From assembly GCA_902536935.1 (NCBI GenBank), contig CACAZM010000002.1, positions 62,001 through 126,000 of the forward strand: a stretch of DNA of 64,000 nt, given 5' to 3'. Positions 5,983 to 14,605 of this stretch are shown one piece after another (position 1 is the first letter of the stretch; the number at the start of each line of letters is the position of its first letter). Position numbers and translations under genes: made by a program. The notes under the pieces were generated by a model. The model was not told the origin of the DNA and ran no database searches. It was given only the letters and a program-made list of their open reading frames with translations. The stretch comes from an uncultured Bacteroidota bacterium (GTDB lineage Bacteria > Bacteroidota > Bacteroidia > Flavobacteriales > Flavobacteriaceae).

Positions 5983-6014
5983 TTGTTTGTTCAAAAATAA
6001 TTCTACTACTTTTG
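5983..6014 (+). promoter_or_regulatory. Bacteroidota-type promoter for topA
   Basis: TACTTTTG (6007-6014) matches TAnnTTTG. TTG triplets at 5983-5985 and 5987-5989 give spacers of 21 or 17 bp, within the range known for the primary sigma factor of this phylum. The start would fall near 6020, about 16 nt before the topA ATG at 6036. Confidence 0.6.
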
Positions 6015-6035
6015 TTGCCGTTTTCGTATACACTT

Positions 6036-8504
6036 ATGGCAAAAAACTTAGTTATTGTAGAGTCACCAGCTAAAGCCAAAACCATTGAAAAGTTTCTTGG
6101 TCCAGACTTCAAGGTCGTATCTAGTTACGGACATGTTTCGGATCTTCCTGACAAAGAATTGGGTGTTGATGTTGAGCAAAACTTTACACCAAAATACACA
6201 GTTTCAAGTGATAAGAAAAAAATTGTTTCAGAGTTGAAGAGCTTAGCAAAAAAATCAAATACGGTTTGGCTCGCTAGTGATGAAGACCGTGAAGGGGAGG
6301 CCATTGCCTGGCATTTGTCCAATGTTTTGGAGTTACAAAAGGAAAATACAAAACGAATCGTTTTTAACGAGATTACCAAGACTGCAATTGACTATGCCAT
6401 TGAGCACCCGAGACAAATCGATCAAAATTTAGTCGATGCACAACAAGCAAGACGTGTTTTAGATCGGCTTGTAGGTTATGAATTATCACCCATACTGTGG
6501 CGTAAGGTTCAAGGTGGTCTGTCAGCAGGGCGAGTGCAGTCTGTTACCCTTCGATTGGTTGTTGAGCGTGAGCGCGAAGTCGAGAACTTTGTTCCCAAAG
6601 AAACATTTAAAGTACAGGGAGACTTTACGTCCGTTGAAGGTAAATCTTTCAAAGCAGAATTGGCTACAACTTTTAGTAGTGAGCAAGAAGCATTATCTTT
6701 TTTAGAACAAAATATTGATGCCGTATTTCAGATTTCTTCCGTTGAGAAAAAGCCGGCAACCAAATCACCAACAGCACCATTTACAACCTCAACATTACAA
6801 CAAGAAGCATCCCGAAAACTTGGATTTACTGTAAGCCGGACCATGCAAAATGCCCAACGTTTATATGAAGCGGGTTTGATTACCTACATGCGAACCGACA
6901 GTGTAAACCTTTCCAAACAAGCTTTAGTTCAGGCCGCATCGGTTATTGAAAGCAATTACGGAAAAGAATACGTTAAAATTCATCAATATAAAACATCAAA
7001 AAAAGGTGCACAAGAGGCGCATGAAGCCATTCGTCCTACCGACTTGAGCCGAACGAATGTGGATATAGAGTTTGATCAGAAAAGACTGTATGATTTGATA
7101 TGGAAGCGCACTTTGGCTTCGCAAATGAGTCATGCAAAACTGCAAAGAACGACTGCAAGGATTACGACAGATCAACACGGTCATGTGTTTGTTGCTCGTG
7201 GAGAGATAGTGGTTTTTGATGGGTTTTTAAAATTGTATTTGGAAGGTGTTGATGATCCTTCGAATGAGGATCGGACCTTATTACCATCGATGAATCAAGG
7301 CGAGCCTTTGCATGTAAAGCGTGTTGTTGCAACACAGCGTTTCAGTCGCCCACCTTACAGGTATTCTGAGGCATCATTGGTTAAAAAATTAGAGGAGCTT
7401 GGGATTGGTAGACCGTCGACTTATGCACCGACCATATCGACCGTTCTCAATCGAAAATATGTCGCTAAAGGAACCCATGAAGGTGAAGAGCGTTCCTACA
7501 AACAGCTTGTTTTGCAGGACAATAAGATCCTTTCAGTAAATCAGTCCGAAAAAACAGGTTCGCAAAAAGGAAAACTGGTACCAACAGATATTGGCTTTTT
7601 GGTCAACGATTTCTTGATCAATAATTTCAAGGACATTGTTGACTATGGATTTACAGCCAGTATTGAACAGGATTTTGACCGAGTTGCTGCTGGAAATTCT
7701 GAGTGGGAATCGATAATGAAGCAATTTTATGCAAATTTTCACCCTGTTGTAGAAGACGTTAAGAAAAATGCCACACGAGAAACTGGGCAGCGAATTTTGG
7801 GGACTGATCCAAAATCTGGTCGTCAACTGAGTGTTCGCCTTGGAAAATTTGGCCCAATGGCTCAATTGGGAACTGTCGAGGACGATGAAAAGCCATTATT
7901 TGCCAACATGCCAGATACTTATAGTTTGTCCAAAATAACATACGAAGAAGCCTTAGATTTATTCAAATTACCCGCAACGCTAGGGGAGTATGAGGGAATG
8001 CCTGTTCAAACAAATAATGGACGATATGGGCCTTATGTGCTGCATAATAAGGTGTTTGTTTCCTTACCAAAAGATGCAAATCCTCTCTCATTAACGCTAG
8101 AAGAAGCGATTGCCTGTATTGAACAGAAACGAAAAGACGATGCCCCAATTGCAACCTATGAGAACCATGGCGTCACTAAAGGAAAGGGTCGTTTTGGACC
8201 TTTTATCAAGTGGAACGGATGGTTTATCAATGTATCCAAACAGTATGATTTCGATAATCTCTCTGATGGAGACATCAAAGAGCTGATCGAGGCAAAGAAG
8301 AAGAAAGAAGCCGAGCGTGTCGTCCGTTTATGGGAAGAAGAGGGTATTCGCATTGAAAAAGCACGATGGGGTCGCCACAACCTCATCAAAGGGAAAACCA
8401 AAGTTGAACTCAACAAAACCATCGTAGTAGATGATTTATCTTTAAAAGAAGTACAAGCGATGTTGAGTAAAAGCAAGCGAACAAAGAAAAAAACAAAAAA
8501 ATAA
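6036..8504 (+). CDS. topA: DNA topoisomerase I (type IA)
   Basis: An 822-residue type IA topoisomerase that relaxes negative supercoils. The TOPRIM domain opens the protein ('NLVIVESPAKAKTIEKFLG') with acidic 'DEDREGEAIAWH'. The active-site tyrosine lies in 'GLITYMRTDSVNLS', and 'GIGRPSTYAPTISTVLNRKYV' is conserved. The C-terminus carries Topo_C repeat segments ('GRYGPYVLHNKVFVSLP', 'GKGRFGPFIKWNGWFINV') and a Lys-rich tail, instead of the zinc fingers of E. coli TopA. The track start at 6012 adds eight unsupported residues; ATG 6036 gives the family N-terminus MAKNLVIVESPAKAK. It is 3 nt ahead of the arginase-like gene, so it may lead the transcript into the gld genes. Confidence 0.97.
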   Translation: MAKNLVIVESPAKAKTIEKFLGPDFKVVSSYGHVSDLPDKELGVDVEQNFTPKYTVSSDKKKIVSELKSLAKKSNTVWLASDEDREGEAIAWHLSNVLELQKENTKRIVFNEITKTAIDYAIEHPRQIDQNLVDAQQARRVLDRLVGYELSPILWRKVQGGLSAGRVQSVTLRLVVEREREVENFVPKETFKVQGDFTSVEGKSFKAELATTFSSEQEALSFLEQNIDAVFQISSVEKKPATKSPTAPFTTSTLQQEASRKLGFTVSRTMQNAQRLYEAGLITYMRTDSVNLSKQALVQAASVIESNYGKEYVKIHQYKTSKKGAQEAHEAIRPTDLSRTNVDIEFDQKRLYDLIWKRTLASQMSHAKLQRTTARITTDQHGHVFVARGEIVVFDGFLKLYLEGVDDPSNEDRTLLPSMNQGEPLHVKRVVATQRFSRPPYRYSEASLVKKLEELGIGRPSTYAPTISTVLNRKYVAKGTHEGEERSYKQLVLQDNKILSVNQSEKTGSQKGKLVPTDIGFLVNDFLINNFKDIVDYGFTASIEQDFDRVAAGNSEWESIMKQFYANFHPVVEDVKKNATRETGQRILGTDPKSGRQLSVRLGKFGPMAQLGTVEDDEKPLFANMPDTYSLSKITYEEALDLFKLPATLGEYEGMPVQTNNGRYGPYVLHNKVFVSLPKDANPLSLTLEEAIACIEQKRKDDAPIATYENHGVTKGKGRFGPFIKWNGWFINVSKQYDFDNLSDGDIKELIEAKKKKEAERVVRLWEEEGIRIEKARWGRHNLIKGKTKVELNKTIVVDDLSLKEVQAMLSKSKRTKKKTKK

Positions 8505-8507
8505 GCG

Positions 8508-9653
8508 ATGGCGATTGAGCTTCTTGTCCCTGTTCCTAATGAAGTTTTGTCTTTACGGACGATATCAGACCCACAGACTTTAGGAAATAAACTTAAAATA
8601 CATTCAGAAAAGGCAGGTATTCCAAGTTTTAAAAATGTACGAATAGCCATTGTTGGCGTTCAAGAAACAAGATCAATTGGTCAACCCCACCAGCGCAAAC
8701 AAAATCTAATTGGAATTCGTAAAGCTCTTTATAATCTGTTTAATGGTAATTGGAATAATAACATCATCGACTTAGGTGACATTCCGATTGGCGAAAAAGA
8801 GAAAGACTCTCACAAGGCATTGCATGATATCGCTAAAGAAATGTATCAACGCAACATTCTGCTTATCGCCTTTGGTGGTAGTCAAGAAAATATTTTGGGC
8901 CTATGCAACGTTTTCCATGAGTTTGAGGTATATTATAACCTCACCTCTATCGATTATAAATTTGATTTTGGAGGTGATGGAAGTCTTATTTCTCCAGATT
9001 CATATATGTCAAAACTCATTGCTAATCGTCCAAACTACATGACTAATTTCTGTAATTTAGGTTATCAAAGTTATATGGTTGCTCAAGATGAAATTGATTT
9101 GATGGATCGATTGTATTTCGAGTCTATTCGCCTTGGCACACTAACTTCTAACCTGAAGGTTGTAGAGCCATTGATGCGGGACTCAGATATAGTTTCTATG
9201 GACATGACTTCGGTAAAATCTAACGACCTTCAAGGTGGTATGACACAAGTAAATGGTTTTACAGCACAACAATTTTGTGCATTAGCTCGTTATGTTGGTA
9301 TTAGTGATCGGGTACGATTCGTTGGATTGTGCAATATTCCTGAAAGTAGCGCTTCTTCGAATTTGACTGCCCAAGCAGTGTGGTATATAATTGAAGGTAT
9401 GCATTACAGAGTAAATGAATATCCATTTTCAACAAAGCAAAATAGCGTTCGTTACTTGGTATCGTGCGATGATCAAGAGTTAATTTTTTATCAAAGTTCT
9501 TTGAGCAAGCGGTGGTGGTTAGAAGTTCAGCCTGAAGACGATTCTAATCTGGAAGCAGTGCTGATTTCTTGTTCTGAAGAGGATTTTTATACTGCAGAAA
9601 AAGGTACGGTTCCTGAGCGTTGGTGGAAGGCTATTCGTAGAAGTGTTATTTAA
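8508..9653 (+). CDS. Arginase/formimidoylglutamase-fold protein with altered metal-binding signatures
   Basis: A 381-residue protein of the ureohydrolase (arginase) superfamily by overall pattern and usually annotated formimidoylglutamase. The metal-site signatures are changed. The GGDHS position reads 'GGSQE' (His to Gln), the DAHxD position reads 'SIDYKFD' (His to Lys), and the SxDxD position reads 'SMDMTSVKSND' (second Asp to Thr). Loss at all three sites argues against a working binuclear Mn centre. It lies 3 nt after topA and about 55 nt before gldK, a context I recall as conserved in flavobacteria. There is no signal peptide, so it is cytoplasmic. A structural or regulatory role linked to gliding and secretion is a guess. 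Confidence 0.85.
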   Translation: MAIELLVPVPNEVLSLRTISDPQTLGNKLKIHSEKAGIPSFKNVRIAIVGVQETRSIGQPHQRKQNLIGIRKALYNLFNGNWNNNIIDLGDIPIGEKEKDSHKALHDIAKEMYQRNILLIAFGGSQENILGLCNVFHEFEVYYNLTSIDYKFDFGGDGSLISPDSYMSKLIANRPNYMTNFCNLGYQSYMVAQDEIDLMDRLYFESIRLGTLTSNLKVVEPLMRDSDIVSMDMTSVKSNDLQGGMTQVNGFTAQQFCALARYVGISDRVRFVGLCNIPESSASSNLTAQAVWYIIEGMHYRVNEYPFSTKQNSVRYLVSCDDQELIFYQSSLSKRWWLEVQPEDDSNLEAVLISCSEEDFYTAEKGTVPERWWKAIRRSVI

Positions 9654-9708: not shown

Positions 9709-11301
9709 ATGAGAAGCATAACTGCATTACTTGCTTTATTAATTATAGTCTTGAGTTGTGGAAAACGCGACCAAGGCGAGTTAATAGGAGTTAAGACAAA
9801 AAAGTTTATTCGAGTAAACCCACATGGGATGGTTGAAGTTCCTGGTGGGTCTTTTATTATGGGTTCTTCCGACGAGGATATCATCGATGCACAAAATGAC
9901 ATTACACGAACGATGACAGTTCGAACCTTTTACATGGATGAAACTGAAATCACCAATCGCGAGTACATGCAATTTATCGAATGGGTAAAAGATTCGATTG
10001 TACGTACAAAGCTTGCTGAAAAAGCTGTGATGGTTTTTGAAGGCATGTACGAGGACAATAATTATGAGCGTGGAACAACTAATGTTCCGTCTGATGACGT
10101 TGAACTTTTCTACTCTTTATTAAATGACCCCGATGAGCTTGAAGAAACCATGCCATCTGACGAGCAAATTGATATTGCAGAAAATCAAAGTTTAGAAGAT
10201 CTTTACAACACGTCTGGGGGTGAAATTCTTAGCTTCTATCCAGCTATGGAAGATTTTATAGGTGATCCAGAGGAGGACTTGACAAGTCTAAATGGATATC
10301 AACAACTAGTCCGATTTCGAGCTCAAAATCCAGTAAAACTTTGGTTGTCTACCAGGACTTCACCTGATAGTGTTTTTCATCATTCACTTCCATTTAAACG
10401 TGATGAGCAGATTTTTTGGGAAAGGGAAGATTATCCAGACATACACTATGCTGAAGTCATGGAAGATTCAATTTATTTACCTGAAAACGAGTGGTATAAT
10501 GGCGTTAAGTCGATTGATACTAAGAAATTGATTTATCGTTTTTCTGAATTGCAAGTCGACAACTTTGTAAATGCAATGAAAAATTCGAATGTCAACGAGC
10601 TGTCCAGAGCCGATTTCCTAATCTATGACGCGGTTCCGATCTACCCTGATACAACGGTTTGGATTCGAGATTTTAAATACAGCTACAATGAACCGATGTT
10701 TAACGAGTATTTTTGGCACCCTGCTTACGCAGATTACCCAGTTGTTGGTATTAGTTGGAAACAAGCTAAGGCGTTTGCGAATTGGAGAACAAAATATAGA
10801 AATGATTACTTAAGAGGAGAAAAAAATAAAACGACAGTTGGGGAGTTCAGATTACCTACAGAAGGGGAATGGGAATACGCTGCCCGTGGAGGAAAGCAGT
10901 CTGCAATATATCCATGGGGCGGACCATATTTGGTTGATAGCCGGGGGGATTTTCTAGCTAATTTTAAGCCTAAAAGAGGTGATTACGCTGCAGACAATAT
11001 TGTTTACACAGCCGAAGTAGACTCTTATGAGCCAAATGATTTTGGGCTTTACAATATGTCTGGAAACGTCGCTGAATGGACATCATCACCCTATTATAAC
11101 GAAAGTTATGAATTTAACACTACCTTCAATCCTGACGTATACATGCCAGGAAACGAAAGAAAAGTAGTTCGTGGTGGATCTTGGAAAGATGTCGCATACT
11201 TTTTAAAAGTAGGTAGCAGAGATTATGAGTACGCAGACAGCGCAAAAAGTTATATTGGTCTACGCTTGGTGCGGGACTATTTAGGATCAAACAGTAAATA
11301 A
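9709..11301 (+). CDS. gldK: Gliding motility / type IX secretion lipoprotein GldK
   Basis: A 530-residue lipoprotein. The signal peptide ends 'LIIVLSCGKRDQ'. The body has a formylglycine-generating-enzyme-like (FGE-sulfatase) fold: 'EVPGGSFIMGSSDED', 'YMDETEITNREYMQFIEW', 'FRLPTEGEWEYAARGG', 'GNVAEWTSSPY', 'KVVRGGSW'. GldK forms with GldN the outer-membrane-associated ring of the type IX secretion machine. The track start at 9643 is 22 codons too early; ATG 9709 begins a normal lipoprotein signal. A very acidic stretch of about 80 residues ('DDVELFYSLLNDPDELEE' onward) interrupts the domain and makes this copy longer than I remember for F. johnsoniae. It is first of gldKLMN. Confidence 0.96.
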   Translation: MRSITALLALLIIVLSCGKRDQGELIGVKTKKFIRVNPHGMVEVPGGSFIMGSSDEDIIDAQNDITRTMTVRTFYMDETEITNREYMQFIEWVKDSIVRTKLAEKAVMVFEGMYEDNNYERGTTNVPSDDVELFYSLLNDPDELEETMPSDEQIDIAENQSLEDLYNTSGGEILSFYPAMEDFIGDPEEDLTSLNGYQQLVRFRAQNPVKLWLSTRTSPDSVFHHSLPFKRDEQIFWEREDYPDIHYAEVMEDSIYLPENEWYNGVKSIDTKKLIYRFSELQVDNFVNAMKNSNVNELSRADFLIYDAVPIYPDTTVWIRDFKYSYNEPMFNEYFWHPAYADYPVVGISWKQAKAFANWRTKYRNDYLRGEKNKTTVGEFRLPTEGEWEYAARGGKQSAIYPWGGPYLVDSRGDFLANFKPKRGDYAADNIVYTAEVDSYEPNDFGLYNMSGNVAEWTSSPYYNESYEFNTTFNPDVYMPGNERKVVRGGSWKDVAYFLKVGSRDYEYADSAKSYIGLRLVRDYLGSNSK

Positions 11302-11311
11302 TTTAAGAGAA

Positions 11312-11908
11312 ATGAAGAAAAAGTTTTTTATACCTGAAAAATACCTTGAACTAGTTTTTGGACTTGGTGCGTCAGTTGTGATAATTGGAGCACTTCTAAA
11401 AATTACACACAAAGACTTTATTTTTAGTGGTAACACATGGCTTACTGCAGGATTAATTACCGAAGCTGTGATTTTTATGATTGCAGGATTGAGAGGTTAT
11501 ACCGTCACGGATGAGGATGGTGATTTAACTCCAGAAACTGCAATTTCAGATGTGTCTAAAGAGGTTGATGAACTTAAGGAGGCTTTTACAGGTGCAACCA
11601 AACAAATCCAAAATTTAACTGGTAGCCTTCAGTCTGCAACAATTGCAGCAGCCACCATCAAAATTCCAGAGAATTTTCAAGTTAATGTAGACGAACTCAA
11701 TAACCGGTTGGCTTCAGCCAGTATTAGCGTTTCGCAGGTACAAGATGTTTACAATAACATTGAGAAGAGTTTAGATGGACAACCAGAGGCTCACAGAGAT
11801 GTTGTTTCTGCAAGTGATAAACTTGTCGTTCAGTTGGAAGAAATGAACTCGCTTGTTAAGCAGCTAAATGAGAAGTATTCTGCGATAGCTAAAGCAATGG
11901 GGAATTAA
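11312..11908 (+). CDS. gldL: Gliding motility / type IX secretion motor protein GldL
   Basis: A 198-residue inner-membrane protein, starting 10 nt after gldK. Two membrane helices at about residues 12-30 ('VFGLGASVVIIGALLK') and 38-60 ('TAGLITEAVIFMIAGLRGY') precede a long cytoplasmic helical region ('VDELKEAFTGATKQIQNLTG'). GldL forms with GldM the proton-driven rotary motor that powers type IX secretion and gliding. The Glu in the second helix (ITEAVIF) is in the place expected for the essential proton-coupling residue. Length is close to the family norm. Confidence 0.96.
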   Translation: MKKKFFIPEKYLELVFGLGASVVIIGALLKITHKDFIFSGNTWLTAGLITEAVIFMIAGLRGYTVTDEDGDLTPETAISDVSKEVDELKEAFTGATKQIQNLTGSLQSATIAAATIKIPENFQVNVDELNNRLASASISVSQVQDVYNNIEKSLDGQPEAHRDVVSASDKLVVQLEEMNSLVKQLNEKYSAIAKAMGN

Positions 11909-11925
11909 ATAAACATCTTTAACCA

Positions 11926-13620
11926 ATGGCAGCAGGAAAACAAGATTCTCGGCAGAAGATGATAAACATGATGTACCTTGTGTTTATTGCTATGCTTGCT
12001 TTAAATATCAGTAAAGAAGTTTTGGCAACGCTAGGAATTTTAAACGAGGATATTGAAAATTCTATAAAATCAAAAAGCGAAAAAAGCAATGAGCTTTACA
12101 GGGTTTTCGCTCAAAATTCTGAAAACCCAAGTTATTCTTTCGCTAACGAATGGGCACCCGTAATAAAAGATGCCACTAATCAATATTTTGACTTTGTGCA
12201 ATCGCTAAAGGACACATTGCTTCTTGATGAATTTGGTAAAAATAAATACAAGAAAGTTATTGTAGTCAAGGATGGGCCAAACAGAAATGATACTCTTCTG
12301 ATTACCAACTTTCAAACAATGGACAAGTCAATCGAATTAGATGATATGTTTTTTGAGGGTAACAATTATGACAGCTTAGGGCTGGTCTATGTAGATCGAT
12401 TCAAAAATTATTCTACACTTATGAAATCGGTAATCGATTCAATTGTTTCAAAAGAAAACAGTTTAACTGTCAAGAGAACCCCTCATGATTTTTCGATCAG
12501 TAAAGATTTAATGAACAGGAGCTTTACTTTTAAGGACTCAGTTGTTAATTCTGAGGGGACAATACAACCCTATCTTGATTATAACTTTAAAGGTTTTCCA
12601 AAGATTGCTTCTCTTTCTAAACTTACTAAACTTCAATCCGATATTCGTGAATTAGAGCTCCAAATGGTTGAAGCATTCAACACCAAAATCCTCAGTGACG
12701 GTAGCGCAGTCAACATCAATACTTCAAAGTCGCTACTCAACGCAAAATCAACTTACTTTGTTGGAGAACGCATTAATGATGCAAAAATACTCATTGGTCG
12801 AATTGCGAGTGACTTTCAACCCGATTCTGTTTCTATTAAAATTGACAATCGTCAGTTGAGACAGGGAAGAGACTTTACCATTGAAGACGGGGCAATAAAT
12901 CTCAATTTGATTTTTAGCTCTGGTGGAGAAAAGAAAATTTCAGGAGATTTGTTTTTCTCTGATGCTGATGGAAACCTTGAACCAATCCCAGTTGAACAAA
13001 CTCTAGTGGTCAACAACCGTACTGATTTCTTCATTGAGATTCCACGTATGAATATCCTATACAGAGGATTACCAAACGAAATTCGTGTAATCGATCCAGA
13101 AATTTCTCAGAACAACATTAGGGTTACATCCTCTTCTGCAAACATCTCGCCCAGTGGCAGTAGCACCTTTGAGGTCAGGCCTAAAGATGGGTTTGATAAA
13201 ATCGTTGTCAATGTTGGAGATAGGACAAATTCAAGAGTAAAAAAATCAAAAACTTTTAGAGTTAAAGACCTTCCTGTGATGGAAAGCTCAATCGCATACA
13301 ATAACAGGTTTTATACAGGTTCTACAGGAATTAGTAAAACTGGACTTCAGAGAGGGAAAGTTGCTGGCAAAGTTCCCAGTGATTTTGATTATGATTTAAC
13401 AATAGAAGTTACAAGTTTTACCTTTTCTGTTGGAAATTTACCTCCAATTCAAATTAAGGGGGATGGTCTACGTGAAGCATTCACTGCAATTGAATCTCAG
13501 TCAAGTGGATCTGTTGCTTTTTTCACCAATGTCGTTTCTACAGCATATTTTGAGTCTAAAGGTCGAAGAGTGCCAATAAAAAATGTAAGAGTAGGAGATT
13601 TCAGTATTAAAATTAGATAA
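11926..13620 (+). CDS. gldM: Gliding motility / type IX secretion motor protein GldM
   Basis: A 564-residue protein with one N-terminal membrane helix ('MMYLVFIAMLALNISKEVL') and a large periplasmic part made of a helical domain followed by Ig-like beta domains. It crosses the periplasm and links the GldL motor to the GldK-GldN ring. The start MAAGKQDSRQKMINMMYLVF is the typical GldM N-terminus. It is somewhat longer than the 513 residues I recall for F. johnsoniae. It sits 17 nt after gldL and 4 nt before gldN, in the fixed order of the operon. Confidence 0.96.
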   Translation: MAAGKQDSRQKMINMMYLVFIAMLALNISKEVLATLGILNEDIENSIKSKSEKSNELYRVFAQNSENPSYSFANEWAPVIKDATNQYFDFVQSLKDTLLLDEFGKNKYKKVIVVKDGPNRNDTLLITNFQTMDKSIELDDMFFEGNNYDSLGLVYVDRFKNYSTLMKSVIDSIVSKENSLTVKRTPHDFSISKDLMNRSFTFKDSVVNSEGTIQPYLDYNFKGFPKIASLSKLTKLQSDIRELELQMVEAFNTKILSDGSAVNINTSKSLLNAKSTYFVGERINDAKILIGRIASDFQPDSVSIKIDNRQLRQGRDFTIEDGAINLNLIFSSGGEKKISGDLFFSDADGNLEPIPVEQTLVVNNRTDFFIEIPRMNILYRGLPNEIRVIDPEISQNNIRVTSSSANISPSGSSTFEVRPKDGFDKIVVNVGDRTNSRVKKSKTFRVKDLPVMESSIAYNNRFYTGSTGISKTGLQRGKVAGKVPSDFDYDLTIEVTSFTFSVGNLPPIQIKGDGLREAFTAIESQSSGSVAFFTNVVSTAYFESKGRRVPIKNVRVGDFSIKIR

Positions 13621-13624
13621 GATC

Positions 13625-14605
13625 ATGAATAAGTTCTTCATTTTTGTATTTATTTTATCGAGCTTTTACATCAATGCTCAATTCAACTTATTGAATGCTT
13701 CTTCACCAGAAGAGGTAGGCGTTAAAACTGATAAGCAAGAAGAACTAGACTTTAATGAGCCACTTGTATATCCTTATGTTGATGATAAAGACATTTTATG
13801 GAGTAAAGTTGTTTATGAATACATTGATGGGTACGAACAGTTTAATTATCCACTATTTTACCCTCTTTTGGACTCAGAATTTTCCGCTGACCGTAAATCT
13901 ATGTGGAGAATTCTTCGAGAGTACATTTTTGAGCAGACTGTTCAAAATGAGGCTGATCTTGAAATTGAGGGAAATGAAGAGAAGGAGGTTTTAATCATAT
14001 ATAACCCTGCGTACAGAAACTTTAATGTTAAGTTCGATGAAGACCTAAGATCTCCTAGACAAGAAGGGAGCGAGGGTTTTTCCTTAGTTGAAGGAATTGG
14101 TCTAGAAGATTCAAATCTAGATGGGGTTGTTGATGATAACGATATTACGTATTTAAAATCCTCAAATATTGTGGGATATAACATCAAAGGCTTGTGGTAC
14201 TTTGATAAGAAATATGGTGAATTGCGATATCGTCTAATTGGAATTCAACCTGTTGGTTATGTCGAGTTTGACTTAAATTCAGCACAAATTGACTTCGAGA
14301 GTGGTGCAACTCAAAGCGAACCAACACCAAAGGCCTTATTTTGGCTATGGTACAGAGATATCCGAGATATTTTGCACAAGCACTATGTGTTTAGTGATAA
14401 AAATAACTCAAAACGTATATCTTTCGATCAGCTTCTTCTTTCTAGAAAATTTCATACCTACCTATATCGAATTGATAACGTTATGGACGATAGAGAGTTA
14501 ATAGATACACCCTACATAAACGATGACCCTTACCTCCGTATTACCGAGTCTCAGCGTTTAAAAGAAATCATTCGAAATTTTGAGCATGACATGTGGAGCA
14601 ACTAG
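13625..14605 (+). CDS. gldN: Gliding motility / type IX secretion protein GldN
   Basis: A 326-residue exported protein with a signal peptide 'FIFVFILSSFYINAQ'. Family stretches include 'DILWSKVVYEYIDGYEQFNYP', 'SMWRILREYIF', and 'VGYNIKGLWYFDKKYGELRYR'. GldN is the periplasmic partner of GldK in the type IX secretion ring. It closes the gldKLMN operon, starting 4 nt after gldM. The terminal 'LKEIIRNFEHDMWSN' matches the normal end of the protein, so it is complete. Confidence 0.95.
   Translation: MNKFFIFVFILSSFYINAQFNLLNASSPEEVGVKTDKQEELDFNEPLVYPYVDDKDILWSKVVYEYIDGYEQFNYPLFYPLLDSEFSADRKSMWRILREYIFEQTVQNEADLEIEGNEEKEVLIIYNPAYRNFNVKFDEDLRSPRQEGSEGFSLVEGIGLEDSNLDGVVDDNDITYLKSSNIVGYNIKGLWYFDKKYGELRYRLIGIQPVGYVEFDLNSAQIDFESGATQSEPTPKALFWLWYRDIRDILHKHYVFSDKNNSKRISFDQLLLSRKFHTYLYRIDNVMDDRELIDTPYINDDPYLRITESQRLKEIIRNFEHDMWSN

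Follow-up and report, generated by a model that had tools for sequence, protein, structure and literature searches.

The enzyme closest by profile to ArgL, the subject of this analysis, is the formimidoylglutamase HutG (TIGR01227; PDB 3m1r, 2a0m, and 4mxr), which is homologous to positions ~47-305 of the ArgL profile. ArgL is encoded in the window (the whole 64,000-nucleotide stretch of Flavobacteriaceae DNA that was analyzed), and differs from HutG in lacking the Mn-B ligands of the binuclear metal site and in carrying an extra C-terminal region. Its score against the hutG model, 19.8 bits, does not reach the equivalog cut-off of 229.15. ArgL can also be compared with MetCb, the inactive subunit of metformin hydrolase, which has lost five of six ligands, binds no metal, is required by its active cognate, and acts by protein binding (PMC11271267). 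Both are arginase-fold proteins with lost metal ligands; however, MetCb has an adjacent active cognate, whereas none is found for ArgL, which occurs across an entire bacterial class. The arginase-like protein of T. brucei (Hai et al., 2015; PMC4303290) is a comparable arginase-fold pseudoenzyme, although it is eukaryotic and has no operon context. ArgL can itself be counted as a putative pseudoenzyme, in that ligands of the binuclear site are lost on a predicted arginase fold, assigned from sequence profiles only. The remaining point of reference is the core operon of the type IX secretion system (T9SS), porP-gldK/porK-gldL-gldM-gldN. ArgL stands at the head of this operon in many Bacteroidia, but across the class the two come apart in both directions.

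In the window, argL occupies 8508..9653 on the forward strand and encodes a 381-residue formimidoylglutamase-like protein whose binuclear metal site is degenerate. It begins 3 nt after the stop codon of its conserved upstream neighbor topA (6012..8504, forward strand), a DNA topoisomerase I gene named from its protein sequence and the original prediction. Downstream on the same strand, NCBIfam models match in series the gldK/porK lipoprotein gene (9709..11301; TIGR03525, 515.8 bits, above the cut-off), gldL (11312-11908; TIGR03513), gldM (11926-13620; TIGR03517), and gldN (13625-14605; TIGR03523). The GldL of the window is short, at 198 residues, and scores 67.1 bits against a TIGR03513 cut-off of 68.3. 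The argL stop codon lies 55 nt before the gldK ATG at 9709; a GTG at 9643 was rejected as the gldK start, being merely the mechanical first start of the open reading frame list, and the lipoprotein start is the ATG. No terminator-like site was found between argL and gldK. On re-reading the sequence, the coordinates, frame, and motifs of argL all agree with the original prediction, as does the spacing it gave, 3 nt after topA and about 55 nt before gldK. Neither a signal peptide nor a lipobox is seen in the ArgL sequence, whose N-terminus is MAIELLVPVPNEVL. The absence of an N-terminal signal suggests that ArgL is probably cytosolic.

Taken alone, the ArgL of the window scores 14.1 bits against Pfam PF00491, under the cut-off of 22. 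All 13 sequences of the family alignment match PF00491 (best 4.2e-26), and the family profile finds formimidoylglutamase 3m1r in the PDB at E 7.7e-14, with further matches to agmatinases, trypanosome formiminoglutamase, and metformin hydrolase subunits, including subunit B at E 1.9e-7. Because of these family and profile matches, membership of ArgL in the arginase/ureohydrolase superfamily (PF00491) is secure by homology. Homologues occur in 26 of the 31 relatives searched, with 27-39% identity outside the genus, and the recurrence of the same neighbor and similar substitutions in other flavobacteria, put forward in the original prediction, holds. In a class-wide sample of Bacteroidia, the profile matches at E < 1e-20 in 140 of 148 genomes (~95%). 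Beyond Bacteroidia, only lower-scoring matches are found, all lacking the C-terminal region, and searches of viral contigs for more diverse relatives and of plasmids for any relatives returned none. One strongly diverged homologue in family f5 (L026/L107, genome G022), with the ligand pattern NSISND, lies beside glycosyltransferase-like genes and away from gldK; it is possibly a repurposed copy.

Each of the three metal signatures of ArgL is altered. GGSQE (residues 123-127; 8874..8888, forward strand) stands at the site of the GGDHS/GG[GD]H motif and places Gln126 at the position of arginase His101. At the DAHxD site, SIDYKFD (residues 147-153; 8946..8966, forward strand) keeps Asp124 and Asp128 as Asp149 and Asp153 and replaces His126 with Lys151, and at the SxDxD site, SMDMT (residues 230-234; 9195..9209, forward strand) keeps Asp232 under the same number and has Thr234 in place of Asp234. 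The claim that all three signatures are changed is thus borne out, with the refinement that three of the six ligands are lost and three remain. Counted over 138 non-redundant ArgL homologues, the canonical ligand is retained at His101 in 17, at Asp124 in 129, at His126 in 2, at Asp128 in 126, at Asp232 in 128, and at Asp234 in a single sequence. The His101 position is mostly Gln (101, with His in 17 and Asn in 10), and the His126 position holds Lys or Arg in 89. In arginase, His126 and Asp234 are the two ligands that serve Mn-B only, and no ArgL homologue keeps both. All three aspartates are kept in 119 homologues, 118 of which also have His, Gln, or Asn at position 101. At most four of the six ligands are kept by any homologue, and a full six-ligand binuclear site, looked for as evidence against the original prediction, occurs in none of the 138. 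Some 20 members lack additional aspartates (in L081 none is left) and nonetheless keep the C-terminal motifs. The fixed pattern of substitution across the 138 homologues rules out chance change of the motifs. We infer that Lys or Arg may structurally replace Mn-B, and that catalysis has been lost.

For comparison, 20 homologues from the same phylum were taken to be enzymes; five of these are paralogues encoded in genomes of Bacteroidia. All 20 keep five or six of the six ligands, some having Asn at the His101 position, whereas ArgL homologues keep four or fewer. In the tree, the enzyme homologues form a clade of their own, split from ArgL by one branch with support of 100/100. Given this single branch and the shared loss of Mn-B ligands, the Mn-B half of the site seems to have been removed once, in an ancient event. 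The same tree has a long branch, of 1.19 changes per site, leading to the genus of the window, and ArgL therefore evolved rapidly at the root of this genus, whose genomes are small.

The degenerate site does not reflect a decaying gene. The dN/dS of argL is 0.06-0.09 between close congeners and 0.04-0.07 for more distant pairs, where dS is near saturation; the value matches that of topA and exceeds that of gldK about two- to threefold. Values of 0.04-0.09, as low as those of topA, together with the conserved length, rule out decay and indicate that the gene is maintained under strong purifying selection.

Several residues are invariant or nearly so in ArgL and not in the enzymes, namely R208, E220, P221, R224, C257, W292, F327, W336, and C355. 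ArgL also carries a C-terminal addition of ~80 residues that is absent from the enzyme homologues (L108-L127). In the window, this family-specific region spans about residues 310-381 (9436..9650, forward strand), and it is kept in Bacteroidia homologues, with the motifs FY.S...RWW.EV, C...DY, and P.RWWKA. To our knowledge, the T. brucei arginase-like protein has no such family-specific C-terminal region. Predicted alone, the region forms four strands and two helices with a mean pLDDT of 72.6, and a Foldseek search of this model against the PDB gives no match with E < 1. A full-length AlphaFold2 model built from 11 same-genus sequences is poor (pLDDT 41), and the assignment of the arginase fold accordingly relies on the sequence profiles.

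The position of argL is conserved. It lies between topA and gldK in 25 of 26 first-round loci. Outside the window's own group, several loci carry a porP/sprF-like gene of ~1 kb in the interval from argL to gldK, which points to topA-argL-porP-gldKLMN as the widespread ancestral order. In family f88, one locus (L167, genome G351) has two consecutive porP-like genes in this interval, an arrangement that would account for the argL-gldK distances of 2.1-2.7 kb in several f88 genomes. In the class sample, argL precedes gldK on the same strand by no more than 3 kb in 77 of 140 cases, and in a Bacteroidales-centred sample (the order of genome G258, 149 genomes; the Bacteroidales label is an inferred one) it is linked to gldK in 61 of 105. 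Conserved linkage to gldK, on which the original prediction depended, is present and is usual in Flavobacteriales. Among 20 Bacteroidales-centred loci without the gldK link, topA is still immediately upstream of argL in 16; among 40 unlinked loci of the class sample, topA is upstream in four. An NAD-dependent epimerase/dehydratase-like gene recurs upstream near argL in 14 of these 40 (L068, L069, L070, L083, L084, L088, L091, L105, and six others), divergent where the strand was read. At these loci, argL is apart from both topA and gldK, in a second conserved neighborhood without T9SS genes.

ArgL is probably a cytosolic, non-hydrolytic protein of the ureohydrolase fold that serves in binding or as a scaffold; its fold, inactivity, role, and location are all part of this proposal. 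To the steps read from the sequences themselves (homology, motif losses, a single clade, purifying selection, the C-terminal addition, and the ancestral order topA-argL-porP-gldKLMN), the proposal adds a course of events. ArgL would have descended from a formimidoylglutamase-like ancestor and lost the Mn-B half of the site (His126, Asp234), most often with Lys or Arg in the place of His126, while keeping the three Mn-A/bridging aspartates and gaining the C-terminal region. It would no longer carry out di-manganese hydrolysis of a guanidino or formimino substrate, and would work instead through binding a protein or small-molecule partner. The probabilities assigned to this proposal and to its rivals overlap and are not required to sum to one.

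It is possible, but doubtful, that ArgL is an accessory of the T9SS or gliding. In that case it would act in the cytosol as a regulator or scaffold, either touching the cytoplasmic portion of the GldLM motor or governing gldKLMN output. Its ancestral place directly ahead of porP-gldKLMN in Flavobacteriales and many other Bacteroidia families, the frequent linkage to gldK in both samples, and the absence of a terminator-like site between the two genes all favor such a role. There is also a strong overlap of argL and T9SS core genes in the class sample, and in the Bacteroidales-centred sample argL is found in none of the nine gldK-negative genomes. However, this co-absence has little weight, because in some lineages that lost gldK (f179, f182) the gldK-positive relatives in the family likewise lack argL. 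Of 149 Bacteroidales-centred genomes, gldK is present in 140 and argL in 105, and argL is missing from 35 of the 140 gldK-positive genomes; it is also missing from families f21 and f103 and from genomes G026, G027, and G029. In five loci (L129, L130, L136, L143, and L144), topA runs straight into porP/gldK or gldK, argL being cleanly deleted and the T9SS kept, and where argL and gldK have separated, argL remains with topA rather than gldK. Conversely, genome G637 (99% complete, 30 contigs) has an intact 397-residue argL (417 bits) and only a weak 4.5e-27 match to gldK, while its congener G779 has both genes. The absence of gldK in G637 could be a rare assembly gap, gldK being the only T9SS gene looked for. 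Three other genomes with argL and no full gldK match (G636, G369, and G435) were left out of the exceptions owing to contig ends or possible fragments, and G678, G725, and G793, once taken as gldK-negative, proved gldK-positive when all candidates were scored. The argL-less T9SS genomes, the clean deletions, and G637 indicate that argL is separable from the T9SS in both directions: it appears to be an ancestral neighbor that the T9SS does not require and, as far as the single genome G637 shows, the data suggest that it is not strictly dependent on the T9SS. The relation is best read as one of ancestral neighborhood, in which ArgL would be an accessory at most rather than an obligate component. 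Thus, the original prediction of a conserved, broken-site fold protein usually beside the gld operon in Flavobacteriales stands, but its further claim of a dedicated gliding/T9SS part is not supported in that form, in view of the 35 of 140 genomes, the five deletions, the retention of topA in 16 of 20 loci, and G637. Open-licence papers yielded nothing relevant on formimidoylglutamase or arginase with gldK or the T9SS, and no report of an argL mutant with a secretion or gliding defect.

Less likely than a T9SS accessory role, and in our view improbable, is that ArgL remains an enzyme that uses one metal, held at the Mn-A half-site, perhaps acting on a different substrate. The three aspartates together with Gln, His, or Asn, the combination seen in 118 of 138 homologues, could hold one metal and support residual or different catalysis, and Asn at the His101 position is tolerated by some enzyme homologues. 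Against this, 89 of the 138 homologues have Lys or Arg where His126 would be and 137 have lost Asp234, the ~20 members with further aspartates lost keep their C-terminal motifs, and the family-invariant residues are located elsewhere. Also less likely than the accessory role, and very improbable, is that ArgL pairs with an active ureohydrolase as its inactive partner, in the way that MetCb does with MetCa. The precedent of MetCb (PMC11271267) and the presence of metformin hydrolase subunit B among the PDB profile matches speak for such a partnership. However, the window's own genome (78% complete) has no PF00491 match at E < 0.001, about half of the family-f1 genomes lack a second arginase-family match at the same threshold, and a non-systematic look noticed no second ureohydrolase gene beside argL in any locus examined.

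A reading that we consider unlikely is that ArgL is an ancestral cytosolic regulator of Bacteroidia, coupling the operon of the T9SS motor/hub to a metabolite or metal that is sensed in the half-emptied site; if true, ArgL would be a new class of regulatory pseudoenzyme. The closest characterized relative of ArgL is formimidoylglutamase, and naming ArgL after that enzyme would mislead. Because argL precedes porP-gldKLMN in many genomes, polar effects and co-expression have to be weighed in T9SS genetics there. Ultimately, near-universal retention, strong selection, new invariant residues, and the C-terminal region make the function of ArgL directly testable.
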